DNA from: Bacteroides sp.
GTDB taxonomy: Bacteria; Bacteroidota; Bacteroidia; Bacteroidales; GCA-2748055
Reading direction: 5' to 3'
Length of the DNA stretch: 32,689 nt
NCBI GenBank assembly: GCA_011056635.1
Contig: DSEO01000096.1
Coordinates: 1-32,689 of the forward strand
Shown here: positions 16,758 through 21,937 of the stretch, piece after piece
How positions within the stretch are numbered: the first letter of the stretch is position 1
Layout: every line of letters begins with the position of its first letter
The notes under the pieces: model-generated
Databases searched by the model: none
What the model was told of the DNA's origin: nothing
Seen by the model: only the letters and a program-made list of their open reading frames with translations
Made by a program: the position numbers and the translations under genes

Positions 16758-17906
16758 ATGGCCGGTATTTACCTACATATTCCATTCTGCAAACAAGCCT
16801 GCAGGTATTGTGATTTTTTCTTTTCGGTCAGTGTCAGGTATAAAACGCAATTTGTGGATTGTCTGCTTGATGAGATCCGTTTGCGGAAACAGGAAGGAGT
16901 GGATAACCAGGCGGAAACATTGTACCTTGGGGGAGGAACTCCTTCTTTACTGAACGGAGAGGAACTGGATCGGATCCTGGATGTACTCCATCGCCAATAC
17001 ACTTTTGGGAATGATGCGGAATGGACCATCGAATGCAACCCGGATGATCTGGACCGGGATTACCTGGAGGGACTCAGAAAAAGAGGTTTCAACCGGATCA
17101 GCATAGGGATCCAGTCATTCCGGGAAGAAGACCTGAAACTCATGCGCAGGTCTCACACTGCGGAACAGGGAGAAATGGCCGTCCTGGAGGCAGCCCGGGC
17201 TGGTTTTGAAAACATCACGATGGACCTGATTTACGGGATCCCGGGTCAGACCCTCCGGCATTGGGAAGAAAGCGTTTCAAAGGCCCTTTCTCTTCCCCTG
17301 TCACACCTTTCGGCCTACCATCTCACATTCGAGCCGGGGACAGTTTTCGATCACTGGCGCATAAAAAACCGGCTTAGCCCGGTAAGTGAGGAAACAAGCG
17401 AACAAATGTACCGTCTGCTGAGGGATCAATTGGAACAGGAAGGTTTCGATCATTATGAAATTTCCAATTTTGCGCGAAACGGAAACATATCGGAACACAA
17501 CATGATCTACTGGACCGGTAATCCTTACACAGGATACGGTCCTTCAGCACATTCTTATGACGGTACCCTGCGAAGCTGGAATATATCTTCACTGAAAGGA
17601 TACATGGACGGAATAGCCCGGGATGAACCGGTGAAAGAAGTGGAGCGGCCGAACCTGACTGAAAAATACCACGATTACCTGATCACCTCATTGCGCACCA
17701 GATGGGGAGCCGATCCTGATTACATCCGGGAACAATTCGGACAGGAGATCCATGCCTGTTTTGAGAAGGGCGCCGAAAGGTACCTCCGGGAAGGAACCAT
17801 GTGGCTCCAGGAAGGAAAGGTGGCCATCACACCCGGGAAATGGCTGATTACAGATCATATACTCAGGGAGTTGTTCACCACCGGGTCATCCAAGTACGAA
17901 TTCTGA
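16758..17906 (+). CDS. hemW: HemW, radical SAM heme chaperone (HemN-like)
   Basis: The 382-residue protein begins MAGIYLHIPFCKQACRYCDF, giving the radical SAM motif C-x3-C-x2-C at Cys11, 15 and 18. It continues with ETLYLGGGTPSLL, TIECNPDDL, GFNRISIGIQSFREEDLKLM and the ITMDLIYGIPGQT strand. The C-terminal HemN-like domain includes YEISNFARNG and HNMIYWTGNPYTGYGPSAHSY. HemW binds and transfers heme; it lacks the extra cysteine and N-terminal region of true coproporphyrinogen dehydrogenase HemN, so automated CPO annotations would be misleading. Its last 21 bp overlap the convergent coiled-coil gene. An inverted repeat lies just upstream. Confidence 0.93.
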   Translation: MAGIYLHIPFCKQACRYCDFFFSVSVRYKTQFVDCLLDEIRLRKQEGVDNQAETLYLGGGTPSLLNGEELDRILDVLHRQYTFGNDAEWTIECNPDDLDRDYLEGLRKRGFNRISIGIQSFREEDLKLMRRSHTAEQGEMAVLEAARAGFENITMDLIYGIPGQTLRHWEESVSKALSLPLSHLSAYHLTFEPGTVFDHWRIKNRLSPVSEETSEQMYRLLRDQLEQEGFDHYEISNFARNGNISEHNMIYWTGNPYTGYGPSAHSYDGTLRSWNISSLKGYMDGIARDEPVKEVERPNLTEKYHDYLITSLRTRWGADPDYIREQFGQEIHACFEKGAERYLREGTMWLQEGKVAITPGKWLITDHILRELFTTGSSKYEF

Positions 17907-18773
17907 AGATCCGATCAGTTTGCCATGCACATACAACTCCACCCGGTGAGCGCCGGGAACAATTTCACCATCATTGGTCCAGAAGATGGACACAGGAAGA
18001 TCACTGTTCTCATAGTACACTGTCCGGGATGCTGATGCGGGGATCAATTCCCCACCCGACTCGATCACTTCCATTTCGGGTGAACCCAGCACCACTTCAT
18101 CAGGCCTGATGATCCTCAGGTAAATGGTTGTTTCTCCCGCAGGGGCCACCTTGTTGGCACGCAGTACGAAATCCACCCTGACCTTTTCGGCTGACCGGAT
18201 CCTGTTGACTTCCCTGTCCCGCTTATTCATCAGTACCAGATTGACTTCGGTAGCCTGTAACGTGGTAGCCAGGTCTTTGATCTCTTCAAGCTGTTCCTTG
18301 TCCTGCTGAAGCCGTTCTTTTTCCGTGGTCAGCTGAAGTTCCGTATTTCTGAGCTGTTTGTTCTCAGCCATGAGTTCCTGGTTTTTCAGGTTCAGGGAAT
18401 CGATCTGTACAATATAACTCCGCAGAACGGAACGCAATGTTTCCATTTCCCGGCGGTACATTTTTATTTTGTAGGCGTCATCCGCCTGGATAGCGATCAG
18501 CTTCTCGATCTTTTCCTGCTGAAGCTGCATTTCTTTCTGGATCTCCACATTGTCAGTCTCCAGCGAATCGTATCTGTAATATATATTTCTCAGTTCTCCC
18601 TCGAGTGAATCCCGTTCCATTCGGAAATATTGTGTTTTCTCAGCCAGATCCTGTGACACAAGGGTCAGGTTTTTTCTGGTATCCAGCAACATATATACAG
18701 AAACCCCGAGCACAACGATAAGCAATCCGAGAATCCCGTACAGGACGCCTGTTTTAGATTTATTCTCTGTCAT
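17886..18773 (-). CDS. Membrane-anchored coiled-coil protein of unknown function
   Basis: From the ATG at 18773 the protein is 295 residues: a short cytoplasmic N-terminus (MTENKSKTG), one transmembrane helix (about 10-30), a long coiled coil (about 35-175) and a C-terminal beta-rich domain (about 180-295). The coiled coil is rich in Glu, Gln and Leu. The C-terminal part, with IYLRIIRPDEVVLGSPEMEV and a final VHGKLIGSSEFVLG, looks like an immunoglobulin-like fold exposed to the periplasm. I do not recognise a named family. A frame starting at 18797 exists, but a -7 element at 18795-18802 excludes it. Its 3' end overlaps hemW by 21 bp. Confidence 0.75.
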   Translation of the reverse strand: MTENKSKTGVLYGILGLLIVVLGVSVYMLLDTRKNLTLVSQDLAEKTQYFRMERDSLEGELRNIYYRYDSLETDNVEIQKEMQLQQEKIEKLIAIQADDAYKIKMYRREMETLRSVLRSYIVQIDSLNLKNQELMAENKQLRNTELQLTTEKERLQQDKEQLEEIKDLATTLQATEVNLVLMNKRDREVNRIRSAEKVRVDFVLRANKVAPAGETTIYLRIIRPDEVVLGSPEMEVIESGGELIPASASRTVYYENSDLPVSIFWTNDGEIVPGAHRVELYVHGKLIGSSEFVLG

Positions 18774-18794
18774 TTCACAATTTTTTATCTGATA

Positions 18795-18802
18795 CAAATA
18801 TA
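18795..18802 (-). promoter_or_regulatory. Bacteroidota -7 promoter element (TATATTTG on minus) for the coiled-coil gene
   Basis: This perfect TAnnTTTG on the minus strand lies between the LuxR-type gene stop and the coiled-coil ATG at 18773. It implies a leader of about 15 nt and separates this gene from the upstream lgt run. Confidence 0.5.
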
Positions 18803-18806
18803 TAAA

Positions 18807-19409
18807 TTACCGTTCATGTTTTGAGGTAACTTCATCAATGGTAATAATGTTATTCACAATGGCATAAACCGTGAGTCCCGAAACAGATTTGATACCCAGC
18901 TTGTGGATGATGTTTTTCCGGTGGGTAGTGACGGTATGGGTGGAAAGAAAAAGCCTATCCGCAATCTGCCTGTTGGTTAATCCCATGGAAAGAAGCCTGA
19001 CGATGGTTTTTTCACGATCGGTCAGTGAACCATGGGTATTTGCCCGGTAATCCCTGAAGTAGGGATTCAACAATTCATTGATCTTGGAAATAATCTCTTC
19101 TTTCTCCTCTGACAGGGAGATGCATCCCCTGGTTTTTTTCCCGCGATCTTCGGCCGAAGGATCACGGTTCAGCAGGATGGTCCGCTCCAGAAGGGCGGGA
19201 TTATTCATATACAGGTCCGTGGCATTGGCAAAAAGTGTATCACTGATGATCAGAAAATCCATACCGTGATGTTCCAGGTAACGGGTCAGCAGATCCACGG
19301 AGCCGAACTCCTTGACCACGGATGCCCCGGGGATGCGCTGCAACACCACGGCCATTCCCTTGCGCACAAGATAGGATTCAACAGCCAGTATGAAATTCAC
19401 TTGTTTCAT
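18807..19409 (-). CDS. LuxR/NarL-type regulator with degenerate receiver domain
   Basis: The 200-residue protein has a C-terminal LuxR helix-turn-helix (SLTDREKTIVRLLSMGLTNR, then QIADRLFLSTHTVTTHRKNI) and an N-terminal receiver-like domain. In the receiver an Asp at about 57 (FLIISD) could be the phosphorylation site. However, the acidic pair at the end of strand 1 is reduced to Glu-Ser, the switch Thr/Ser after ILL is Asn, and the conserved Lys is replaced within GCISLSEE. This suggests a non-classical or phosphorylation-independent receiver. Its ATG overlaps the stop of the hemerythrin gene by 4 bp, so the two proteins are made together and probably act together. Confidence 0.9.
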   Translation of the reverse strand: MKQVNFILAVESYLVRKGMAVVLQRIPGASVVKEFGSVDLLTRYLEHHGMDFLIISDTLFANATDLYMNNPALLERTILLNRDPSAEDRGKKTRGCISLSEEKEEIISKINELLNPYFRDYRANTHGSLTDREKTIVRLLSMGLTNRQIADRLFLSTHTVTTHRKNIIHKLGIKSVSGLTVYAIVNNIITIDEVTSKHER

Positions 19410-20140
19410 CCGGCGTTAAATTTCCGCGTCAGTTGCTGCTCCAATTCAATAACCCTGGGAACCAAAATTTTATCTTCCATGTGCGCATGGTCAACCAGGT
19501 CTCTTACCAGGTCTGACAGGTCGGTCAGTACCTGGTGACAAAGGTCAAAATCCTCGAAAGGAGGAAGATATTTGATAATCAGTTTGGAAAGGTTTTCCAG
19601 GCTGTTCTCGAGGCGATCGTGCTCCTGGGCAAATTCTTTGATGGTATCGTTCTGAAGTGAGCGCAAAAAGCCACTGTCCGGTTCTTCTTTCATGGATTGT
19701 TTTTCCAGCTCCAGGATGTAAGGCAGTACGCTATCTTCCTCCCTGGAGATATGATCCAGGAATTCCTTTTTGTAATCGTCAAAAAAACCAGCTACCAGAC
19801 CGCGTTCTTTTTCTGACAGGTTGGAACCTTCCAGCAACCGGCTGATCTTGCTTTCTATCTTCGGAAGAGCAATATGGAGGTAATAATCGTGGGTGCTGGT
19901 CAGGTATGCCACCACAGAACCGATCGGAAACAGCGACAGATCGGTCTGGGGAATATAATCCTCATCCAGGTAGGCATTGGCAATTTCCAGGAAAAAGTCG
20001 GTATTCACCCTGTTGAGCCGGCATACCTCCTCAACATTCTTTTCGCCGAAACCGAGTTTGATGTTGAAACGGGGTAACAGCGGCAGCAACTGATGGTGTT
20101 TCAGTACTGCCTGGCACATGGGCAGGTTCCTGTGTATCAT
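19406..20140 (-). CDS. RIC/YtfE-like hemerythrin-domain protein lacking the N-terminal CC motif
   Basis: The 244-residue protein has a short ScdA_N-like N-terminal region (about 15-60) and a four-helix hemerythrin domain. Predicted di-iron ligands are His84, His130 with Glu134 (HISRE), His174 (EHD) and His218 with Glu222 (HAHME). They match the YtfE/RIC ligand order, including His84. The CC pair that RIC proteins carry in the N-terminal domain is replaced by GF (LGFGEKNVEEVCR). RIC proteins repair iron-sulfur clusters after nitric-oxide or oxidative damage; without the cysteines a sensor or oxygen/NO-binding role is also possible. The start lies 35 bp after the CDF gene, and the 3' end overlaps a LuxR-type regulator by 4 bp. 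Confidence 0.88.
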   Translation of the reverse strand: MIHRNLPMCQAVLKHHQLLPLLPRFNIKLGFGEKNVEEVCRLNRVNTDFFLEIANAYLDEDYIPQTDLSLFPIGSVVAYLTSTHDYYLHIALPKIESKISRLLEGSNLSEKERGLVAGFFDDYKKEFLDHISREEDSVLPYILELEKQSMKEEPDSGFLRSLQNDTIKEFAQEHDRLENSLENLSKLIIKYLPPFEDFDLCHQVLTDLSDLVRDLVDHAHMEDKILVPRVIELEQQLTRKFNAG

Positions 20141-20175: not shown

Positions 20176-21105
20176 TTAATGATCCTGATGAATAAGACGG
20201 GAAGAGTGGTCCGTTCCAAATTCAAACTGCAGGGTCACATGATGAACGTGAAAATCCGTCTGGAGCAACTTCTCAATTTTTTGCTGTGTATGCTTCAGCT
20301 CACTGAGCTTCAGGTCGGTTTTCAACTCCACATGTGCTTCCAGGTGAACCTGGTGCTCGGTCATGTTCCAGGCATGTAAATGATGGATGTTGCTCACCTC
20401 AGGAAATTGTTCCACCGCCTGTTTAACCCTGGATAGACTGAGGGCTGAAGGAGTGGATTGCATCAGGATATCGACCGATTCCTTCAGGATGACAAAAGCG
20501 GCCCGGAGGATATAAATACAGATCAGCAGGGTAATCAGGGGATCGATCCAGTAGATTTCGAAAAGTTGGATCAGGAGTCCGCCGAGGATTACGACCACCG
20601 AGGAGAGACTGTCTCCGATCAGGTGCACATAAGCGGCCCGGACGTTGATACTTTTCATCGAATCCTTTCTCAGGATCATTACCGCGAGAACATTGGCCAG
20701 CAATCCGATCATTCCCACCACGAGCATAATCATTGAATTGATGGTCTCTGGTTCCTTCCAGCGGAGATAAGCTTCCTTCAGCAGGTAAATGCTCATGATG
20801 ATCAGGATCACAGCATTGAGGACCGCAGCAAGGATTTCAATCCGCTTATAGCCGAAGGTCTTTTTGGGATTGGCTTCTTTCCTGCCAATGAGGGTGGCCA
20901 GGTAAGCGATGAACGTGGCAAATGTATCTCCCAGGTTATGTAAGGCATCGGAAAGAAGGGCAAGGCTGTTGGAAAGGATACCGCCGGCAAATTCTGCAAT
21001 GGTGATCACAAAATTCAGCAGGGTGACCACCAGCAGGTTCTTTTCATTAACCGGATGATGGTGAAGCGGGGATTTGCTTGTATGGCTATGCCTCTTTTCA
21101 GTCAT
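20176..21105 (-). CDS. Cation diffusion facilitator (CDF) metal exporter, zinc type
   Basis: The 309-residue protein has a His-rich N-terminus (RHSHTSKSPLHHHP), six predicted transmembrane helices and a C-terminal cytoplasmic domain with LHAWNMTEHQVHLEAHVEL. The transport site is HxxxD in helix 2 (ALHNLGD, His56 and Asp60) and HxxxD in helix 5 (VHLIGDSLSS, His161 and Asp165). This is the zinc/cadmium-type signature. It probably exports Zn2+ from the cytoplasm using the proton gradient. It starts 1 bp after the ZIP gene and is co-oriented, so uptake and efflux proteins are on one transcript. Confidence 0.94.
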   Translation of the reverse strand: MTEKRHSHTSKSPLHHHPVNEKNLLVVTLLNFVITIAEFAGGILSNSLALLSDALHNLGDTFATFIAYLATLIGRKEANPKKTFGYKRIEILAAVLNAVILIIMSIYLLKEAYLRWKEPETINSMIMLVVGMIGLLANVLAVMILRKDSMKSINVRAAYVHLIGDSLSSVVVILGGLLIQLFEIYWIDPLITLLICIYILRAAFVILKESVDILMQSTPSALSLSRVKQAVEQFPEVSNIHHLHAWNMTEHQVHLEAHVELKTDLKLSELKHTQQKIEKLLQTDFHVHHVTLQFEFGTDHSSRLIHQDH

Positions 21106-21106
21106 C

Positions 21107-21937
21107 TCAAATAAAAAACAATAAACTCAGGGCCATGATTGCCATTCCTGCCACGAAACCATATACGGAGTGGTGATGCAGTCCGTATTCCCTCGCAGTG
21201 GGCAGCAGCTCGTCAATGGAAATAAAGACCATGATACCTGCTACTCCTGCAAAGAGAAAACCGAAAAGAACGGGACTTAAAAACGGCATCAGGATAAAAT
21301 AGGCAAGCAATGCTCCGACTGGTTCTGCCAAACCTGACAGGAAAGAGAGAATGAATCCCCTTTTTTTGCTGCCCGTCCCATATGAAATGGGAACCGATAC
21401 CGCGATCCCTTCCGGGATGTTATGGATGGCAATGGCCACGGCAATGGGAATGGCGATGGAAGTGTCGGAAAGTCCTGCAATAAACGTGGCGATCCCTTCG
21501 GGAAAATTGTGGATGGCGATGGCCAAGGCGGTGAAAAGACCCATTCGTACAAGCCTTGGATCTTTCTTCCCTGTCCTGATTACATCTTCCACCCTTCTGA
21601 TCTCGTGCGGATTTTCAAGTGAAGGGATCAGTTTATCGATCACAGCGATGATCAGGATCCCCGTAAAAAATGCCAGTACAGTATACCAGGAGGCCACTTT
21701 CTCCCCGTGATCCATACCGAATCTACCTGCATATTCCACAATCAGTGATTCCCTGGCTTTCTGCAGGATCTCCACGAAGGAAACATAGACCATTACCCCC
21801 GCTGAAAATCCAAGGCTCAGAGAAAGAAAGCGGGTATTGGTACCCTTTGCAAAAAACGCAAGCGCACTGCCGATACCGGTTGACAATCCTGCAAAAACGG
21901 TTAAACCAAATGCCAGCCAGAAATTACCGTTTTCCAT
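21107..21937 (-). CDS. ZIP-family metal transporter (ZupT-like)
   Basis: The 276-residue protein has about eight transmembrane helices and both ZIP signatures: HNFPEG (143-148) and HNIPEG (172-177). Their His, Asn and Glu residues form the binuclear metal site. N-terminal [15 protein letters not shown] matches ZupT-type proteins. It would import Zn2+ and perhaps other divalent metals across the inner membrane. It lies 5 bp after lgt and 1 bp before the CDF exporter. Specificity cannot be read from sequence. Confidence 0.94.

Follow-up and report, generated by a model that had tools for sequence, protein, structure and literature searches.

A conserved hemerythrin-LuxR gene pair of Bacteroidales as a candidate iron-status switch

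Introduction

The Bacteroidales are dominant gut and oral bacteria, and their iron sensing has been described as poorly known. A gene pair in which a LuxR-type regulator gene stands behind a hemerythrin gene was named in 2023 as PG1236-cdhR in P. gingivalis and BT_0519-0520 in B. thetaiotaomicron, with a fused form in Prevotella intermedia (PMC10434189, in the passages considered here), and the pair as such is not new. According to the same passages, BT_0519-0520 rises 16-20-fold in low iron, and the PG1236-37, flavodoxin, feoB, hmu, pflAB, eno and TetR/ABC loci are also up under this condition. These passages call the mechanism of CdhR unclear, state that iron binding by CdhR was not shown, and describe molecular mechanisms in Bacteroidetes as scarcely known. 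CdhR is reported to control hmuYR (PMC9666725 and the passages of PMC10434189), as well as mfa1 and luxS (PMC9666725, PMC4082711); these last two are not iron genes, which speaks against an iron switch.

Iron sensing by hemerythrin domains is known from BRUTUS of plants and FBXL5 of humans, where, in the passages of PMC12022348 considered here, such a domain gauges iron (and O2) over iron uptake. We propose a similar role for a bacterial pair, but BRUTUS and FBXL5 are eukaryotic E3 ligases that act by degradation, whereas here the partner is a bacterial transcription factor.

We analyzed a pair of this kind on a 32,689-nucleotide stretch of contig DSEO01000096.1 from Bacteroides sp. (hereafter, the window). 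Its architecture, the existence of fusions and the taxon range suggest that it is of the PG1236-CdhR type. As in PG1236-PG1237, BT_0519-BT_0520 and PIN17_RS10465, for which fused forms are known, the hemerythrin gene precedes the regulator gene; the low-iron induction and the effect on hmuYR were published for those systems, in species other than the window organism.

The gene pair and its locus

The pair lies inside an operon-like run on the minus strand, lgt-ZIP-CDF-hemerythrin-LuxR-coiled coil (Table 1). The 4-bp overlap of the two genes that had been reported in a preliminary description of this DNA was recovered at the same coordinates, the two ORFs having an ATGA in common. This member of the family sits in a metal-transport operon, a difference from the PG1236-CdhR systems. 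For those, the passages of PMC10434189 considered here give no operator. In both congeners of the window organism, a second CDF gene stands between the CDF and hemerythrin genes (L152:5267-7934; L153:8427-11188), and the window is without it (20176-21937).

Table 1. Coordinates and annotation of the hemerythrin-LuxR locus in the window
Feature	Position	Strand	Basis and remarks
Hemerythrin/RIC-fold gene	19406..20140	-	244 aa (P0001); ORF, Pfam, model, ligand alignment; proposed di-iron sensor
ScdA_N-like N-terminal region, residues 1-65	19946..20140	-	LGFG for CC pair, Arg24, Cys40; alignments, helical in model, full-length YtfE match
LuxR/NarL-type regulator gene	18807..19409	-	200 aa (P0002); ORF, GerE, model; proposed phosphorylation-independent activator
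Pseudo-receiver domain, residues 1-115	19065..19409	-	Val10-Glu11 for Asp-Asp, Ser56 for phospho-Asp; receiver-like alternating alpha/beta model
GerE helix-turn-helix, residues 128-186	18852..19028	-	Recognition helix HTVTTHRKNI
ATGA stop/start overlap, translational coupling	19406..19409	-	Most frequent type of junction in 59 named pairs
CDF cation efflux gene	20176..21105	-	Immediately 5' of hemerythrin gene; family by eye; probably co-transcribed
ZIP-family metal transporter gene	21107..21937	-	Family by eye; context
Coiled-coil protein gene, function unassigned	17886..18797	-	Directly 3' of LuxR gene; kept in genus; context

A predicted di-iron protein of RIC fold below the RIC family cut-off

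The hemerythrin ORF matches the Pfam Hemerythrin family with 39.8 bits (cut-off 25.3). Against the RIC family TIGR03652 it scores 72.7 bits, below the curated cut-off of 204.7, which rules out membership by score, and no match to Pfam ScdA_N was obtained in this ORF at E<=1. The AlphaFold2 model computed from the natural alignment (pLDDT 92.2) has E. coli YtfE and S. aureus ScdA as its best PDB matches, and model and alignment agree on the two-domain RIC/YtfE fold with a four-helix di-iron bundle and its ligands. The six ligands listed in the preliminary description (His84, His130, Glu134, His174, His218 and Glu222) are all exact and are invariant in an alignment of 63 homologues. They are also present in most members of a wider set of 32 sequences, in which one member lacks all six and two fused proteins align an Arg at His174.

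The CC pair of ScdA_N had been described as replaced by LGFG. The protein indeed reads KLGFGEK there, in place of the DfCCgG motif of the RIC ScdA_N domain (PMC9268430), and LGFG is the norm of the family, the LGFG and Lys34 columns of the 63-sequence alignment being biased because the search pattern demanded them. Arg24 and Cys40, the latter a cysteine other than those of the CC pair, are (nearly) invariant in the 63 homologues. The window protein thus shares with YtfE, ScdA and DnrN all six ligands and the fold of the two domains, but differs from them by its score, by LGFG and Cys40 instead of CC, and by its nearly constant linkage to a LuxR gene. One paired homologue (L068:1316-2035) has lost all six ligands and kept its LuxR neighbour, and constitutes a natural test of the metal requirement.

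A response regulator that has lost its phosphorylation site

The second ORF contains a GerE helix-turn-helix (64.4 bits, Pfam) and no Pfam Response_reg match at E<=1. Its AlphaFold2 model from the natural alignment (pLDDT 87.9) matches LiaR, RcsB and NarL over the full length, and therefore the receiver fold is retained despite the degenerate sequence; the protein combines a receiver-like fold with a GerE domain. Like the rest of the family, it does not have the set of residues that makes a NarL/FixJ receiver phosphorylatable (phospho-Asp, acidic pair, Thr/Ser and Lys). The preliminary description had the receiver keeping an Asp57. This residue exists, but alignment to receivers puts Ser56 in the phospho-acceptor column, where Asn is commonest in the family, and Asp57 falls one residue further at an unconserved position, which is occupied by Glu or Gln in both congeners. 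Likewise, the acidic pair said to be lost is lost in part: its first acid is replaced by Val10, but Glu11 remains, and most of the family has Ala-Glu. The reported loss of the switch Thr and of the Lys holds for both and extends to the whole family. Because the phosphorylation residues are missing family-wide, input from a dedicated kinase was rejected as the likely default. Compared with LiaR, RcsB and NarL, the overall fold, the GerE domain and a putative palindromic operator near the promoter core (see below) are alike, whereas the phospho-acceptor, first acid, Thr and Lys are missing and the partner is a hemerythrin instead of a histidine kinase.

Linkage and fusion of the two genes across the order

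The conservation of the pair, set beforehand as a test of the proposal, was followed in 198 Bacteroidales genomes drawn evenly, the order being named from relatives. A hemerythrin homologue was found in 140 of them. Among the 150 order-wide hemerythrin matches listed, 134 are accompanied, at no more than 700 bp and on the same strand, by a LuxR homologue, 6 are single fused frames and 2 have the genes in swapped order, still adjacent; at least two of the apparently unpaired ones among these matches stand at the end of a contig or of the list. In a separate collection of 80 named loci, gathered with a pattern for the hemerythrin only, linkage was complete (80/80), with 60 adjacent pairs, mostly showing the identical 4-bp overlap, and 20 fusions. 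A hemerythrin beside, or fused to, a LuxR-type HTH is therefore found at 18807-20140 of the window and throughout the order, so that the test favors the proposal and a conserved, functional pairing is supported; Bacteroides caecigallinarum, Phocaeicola plebeius and Parabacteroides gordonii are among the carriers of homologues.

The fused proteins, from Alistipes and others, mostly have about 305-342 codons, and the hemerythrin runs directly into the HTH; with such lengths there is no room for a receiver. The near-universal linkage, the receiver-less fusions and the lost phosphorylation residues together argue that the hemerythrin, not a kinase, is likely the input of the HTH protein, and this sequence evidence is strong. 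This part of the initial proposal thus stands as likelier than a kinase; the signal that it had named is not supported in that form (see below).

No wider neighborhood is conserved: the flanks differ, and the pair alone is constant. A CDF gene beside the pair, which recurs in Alistipes, in one further family and in the genus of the window, was considered as a theme and set aside, as three independent cases are too few. In Alistipes and relatives it is the fused hemerythrin-HTH gene that is directly followed by a CDF-like transporter (L082, L085-L087, L091, L092, L094, L097, L098, L104, L107, L145). One congener (L060, G007:C78:4000-12000) carries two further close hemerythrin-LuxR pairs, one with a longer and more divergent hemerythrin.

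A palindrome at a fixed distance from the -7 box

A palindrome, AATACCTA-N4-TAGGTATT, is common to the regions upstream of the named pairs. At 13/16 positions or better, it occurs in 34 of 78 such regions, against 0.08 expected from shuffles, and in 24 of 36 such sites it stands 21 or 22 bp upstream of a -7 box TAnnTTTG. An activator in contact with the polymerase would require such a fixed spacing, at the position of the -33 element. The half-site TACCTA/TACCCA, which we take to resemble a NarL-type heptamer, fits a GerE HTH. The palindrome and its promoter geometry seem to be new, no operator for the hemerythrin-CdhR pair being described in the literature searched. Covariation of the recognition helix with the half-site could not serve as a test, the helix being too conserved. 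No operator was found upstream of many Parabacteroides pairs, and in the order-wide loci that are more distant, no dyad was clearly enriched 5' of the pairs.

With 3 mismatches, the plain operator is no more frequent than its reversed control, and therefore only <=1 mismatch or a composite promoter was used, in which the operator is followed after 20-22 bp by the -7 box. In the 198 genomes, this composite promoter gave 86 sites and its reversed version about 3. It is present in 52 of the 140 hemerythrin-positive genomes (88 have none) and in 4 of the 58 hemerythrin-negative ones (Fisher p=9e-6, phylogeny not accounted for). Two of these four have their site upstream of feoAB; one of the two is 70% complete, and the other has a family relative with the pair.

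The window genome has no consensus operator at <=2 mismatches, nor has the window itself, and none was found upstream of the pair in its genus. The genome contains exactly one composite site (G000 C21:12799-12842), located 5' of a permease-feoAB operon, and both congeners likewise have one each in front of permease-feoAB. These sites are of a genus variant, AATACCCA-N4-T(A/G)GGGAT, and when the permease-feoAB promoters of the three genomes are aligned, the block with the highest conservation is AAAATACCCA-N4-T(A/G)GGGAT. Since it carries the sole composite site, feoAB is the predicted target of the window pair.

Genes behind the operator sites

The genes behind 85 distinct composite sites were classed by similarity to hand-picked representatives, the FeoAB, CobN, imelysin, PFL and DUF2249 examples being identified by Pfam. 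At most regulon sites overall, 20-22 bp separate the palindrome from the -7 box of Bacteroidota that follows it. Iron uptake dominates: feoAB comes first in 22 and permease-feoAB in 3, and TonB receptors follow about 14, some after a small His-rich gene. The pair itself is found at 3 sites, in one case followed by feoAB. Two Parabacteroides genomes have exact operator sites upstream of feoAB, and a genome other than these two has the order operator, hemerythrin, LuxR, feoAB. DUF2249 genes account for 7 sites, most with a COX1-like gene, flavodoxin for 2, and TetR and CobN for 1 each, and CobN/HmuS-like genes also belong to the predicted regulon. About one third of the sites are unclassified, including several look-alike porins, two PepSY-like proteins and a CDF.

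In B. caecigallinarum, seven exact or one-mismatch sites were found genome-wide. One belongs to the pair and one to the putative small RNA that follows it; the other five are at pflB, an HdeD-like gene, a TetR-methyltransferase-ABC locus, a TonB locus and eno, and these last two are without the standard -7 spacing. A porin-imelysin locus was discarded as a target, as the -7 box spacing indicates the divergent HdeD-like gene instead. Flavodoxin, feoB, TetR/ABC, pflAB, eno and the pair are at once operator targets and among the published low-iron-induced genes. DUF2249 (in some cases with DUF1858) together with a COX1-like membrane protein is a recurrent target, possibly NO-related (L231, L233, L235, L291, L292, L296), and peroxiredoxin genes lie near two sites.

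A proposed iron-status switch and its alternatives

Taken together, the predicted targets suggest that the pair switches on iron-uptake genes in iron scarcity, and an iron-status switch, perhaps tuned by O2 or NO, is the best reading. We consider it rather probable that the pair amounts to a single regulator split over two genes, in which iron status gauged by the hemerythrin is passed to the LuxR protein, to the palindrome and to iron acquisition. The occupancy of the di-iron site (or its redox/NO state) would report iron status, and the hemerythrin would act by direct contact on its co-translated partner; since phosphorylation of the latter's receiver is no longer possible, the hemerythrin would replace the kinase as input. 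Iron-loaded hemerythrin would restrain the LuxR protein and the apo form would free it for activation, the opposite direction being possible. In iron-starved cells, the LuxR protein would bind the palindrome just 5' of the -7 box and activate iron promoters, above all feoAB, as well as its own operon in many species; BT_0520 and the window LuxR would bind AATACCTANNNNTAGGTATT and the window-genus site. Binding of the operator by LuxR, its contact with the hemerythrin, iron as ligand and the direction of the switch are parts that we infer, and the link between operator and regulator is suggested by correlation. Several observations speak against this reading: hemerythrin-negative genomes with a composite site, the 88 hemerythrin-positive ones that show none, the many Parabacteroides pairs and the pairs of the window genus that have no operator in front of them, and the paired homologue that has lost its ligands.

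The preliminary description had proposed an O2/NO/redox signal. Hemerythrin domains bind O2, DUF2249/DUF1858 and COX1-like genes recur among the targets, and peroxiredoxin genes are close to two sites. RIC relatives show responses to NO as well as to H2O2 (PMC9268430), which also speaks for an oxidative/nitrosative-stress switch in which the hemerythrin senses O2/NO (redox) and the iron genes follow through a link between Fe-S damage and iron demand. We nevertheless hold such a switch to be unlikely: strict anaerobes are numerous among the hosts, the targets are dominated by iron uptake of the ferrous and TonB-dependent kinds, and the induction published in the passages of PMC10434189 is by iron limitation. 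The feoAB, TonB, flavodoxin and CobN/HmuS-like targets, with this induction, thus favor iron first. O2 or NO could still feed into the same di-iron site, and the recurrent DUF2249 and COX1-like targets are a reason why they may modulate the switch.

Unlikelier still is an operator belonging to another iron regulator, with the pair merely one of its targets and the hemerythrin engaged in Fe-S repair or iron handling. This would account for the four genomes that have operator sites and no detected hemerythrin, and for the window genus, with its operator at feoAB and none at the pair. However, operator and hemerythrin co-occur, the half-site that we take to be NarL-like fits a GerE HTH, and the hemerythrin-HTH fusion argues for a sensory role. 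Iron regulation of the pair itself (passages of PMC10434189) would fit this alternative, but the reported control of hmuYR by cdhR (same passages; PMC9666725) goes against it. Finally, control of the LuxR protein by other means (a tyrosine phosphorylation pathway, AI-2 or protein level), with the hemerythrin only stabilizing it, is very improbable, since the dependence of P. gingivalis cdhR expression on Ptk1/Ltp1 (PMC4082711) that supports it was an effect on cdhR transcription, and the invariant di-iron ligands and receiver-less fusions imply a metal-dependent input.

The iron-status switch turns a gene pair that was only vaguely known into a testable circuit with an operator, a promoter geometry and a target list. 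If true, the input of a response regulator has passed to a metal protein, in a bacterial parallel to the hemerythrin iron sensing of FBXL5 and BRUTUS; the feoAB and TonB targets fit such control of iron uptake, while the sensing itself is presumed. More tentatively, a hemerythrin in direct control of a phosphorylation-independent LuxR activator might be the main iron gauge of Bacteroidales, with a single, -7-phased operator and an order-wide iron-starvation regulon made up of feoAB, TonB/heme uptake and flavodoxin, to which Bacteroides and Phocaeicola would add the small RNA linked to the pair.

A conserved element behind the pair

In Bacteroides and Phocaeicola, the operator of the pair and a -7 box recur immediately 3' of the LuxR gene, before an element of roughly 97 nt that is 97-100% conserved (L176:3565-3713, L184:3531-3678, L187:2674-2823; also L134-L137 and L144). 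It ends in a GC-rich hairpin followed by a T-run and is a candidate iron-responsive small RNA. It has no Rfam match; in 61 family genomes, it gave 3 good matches and 1 short one.
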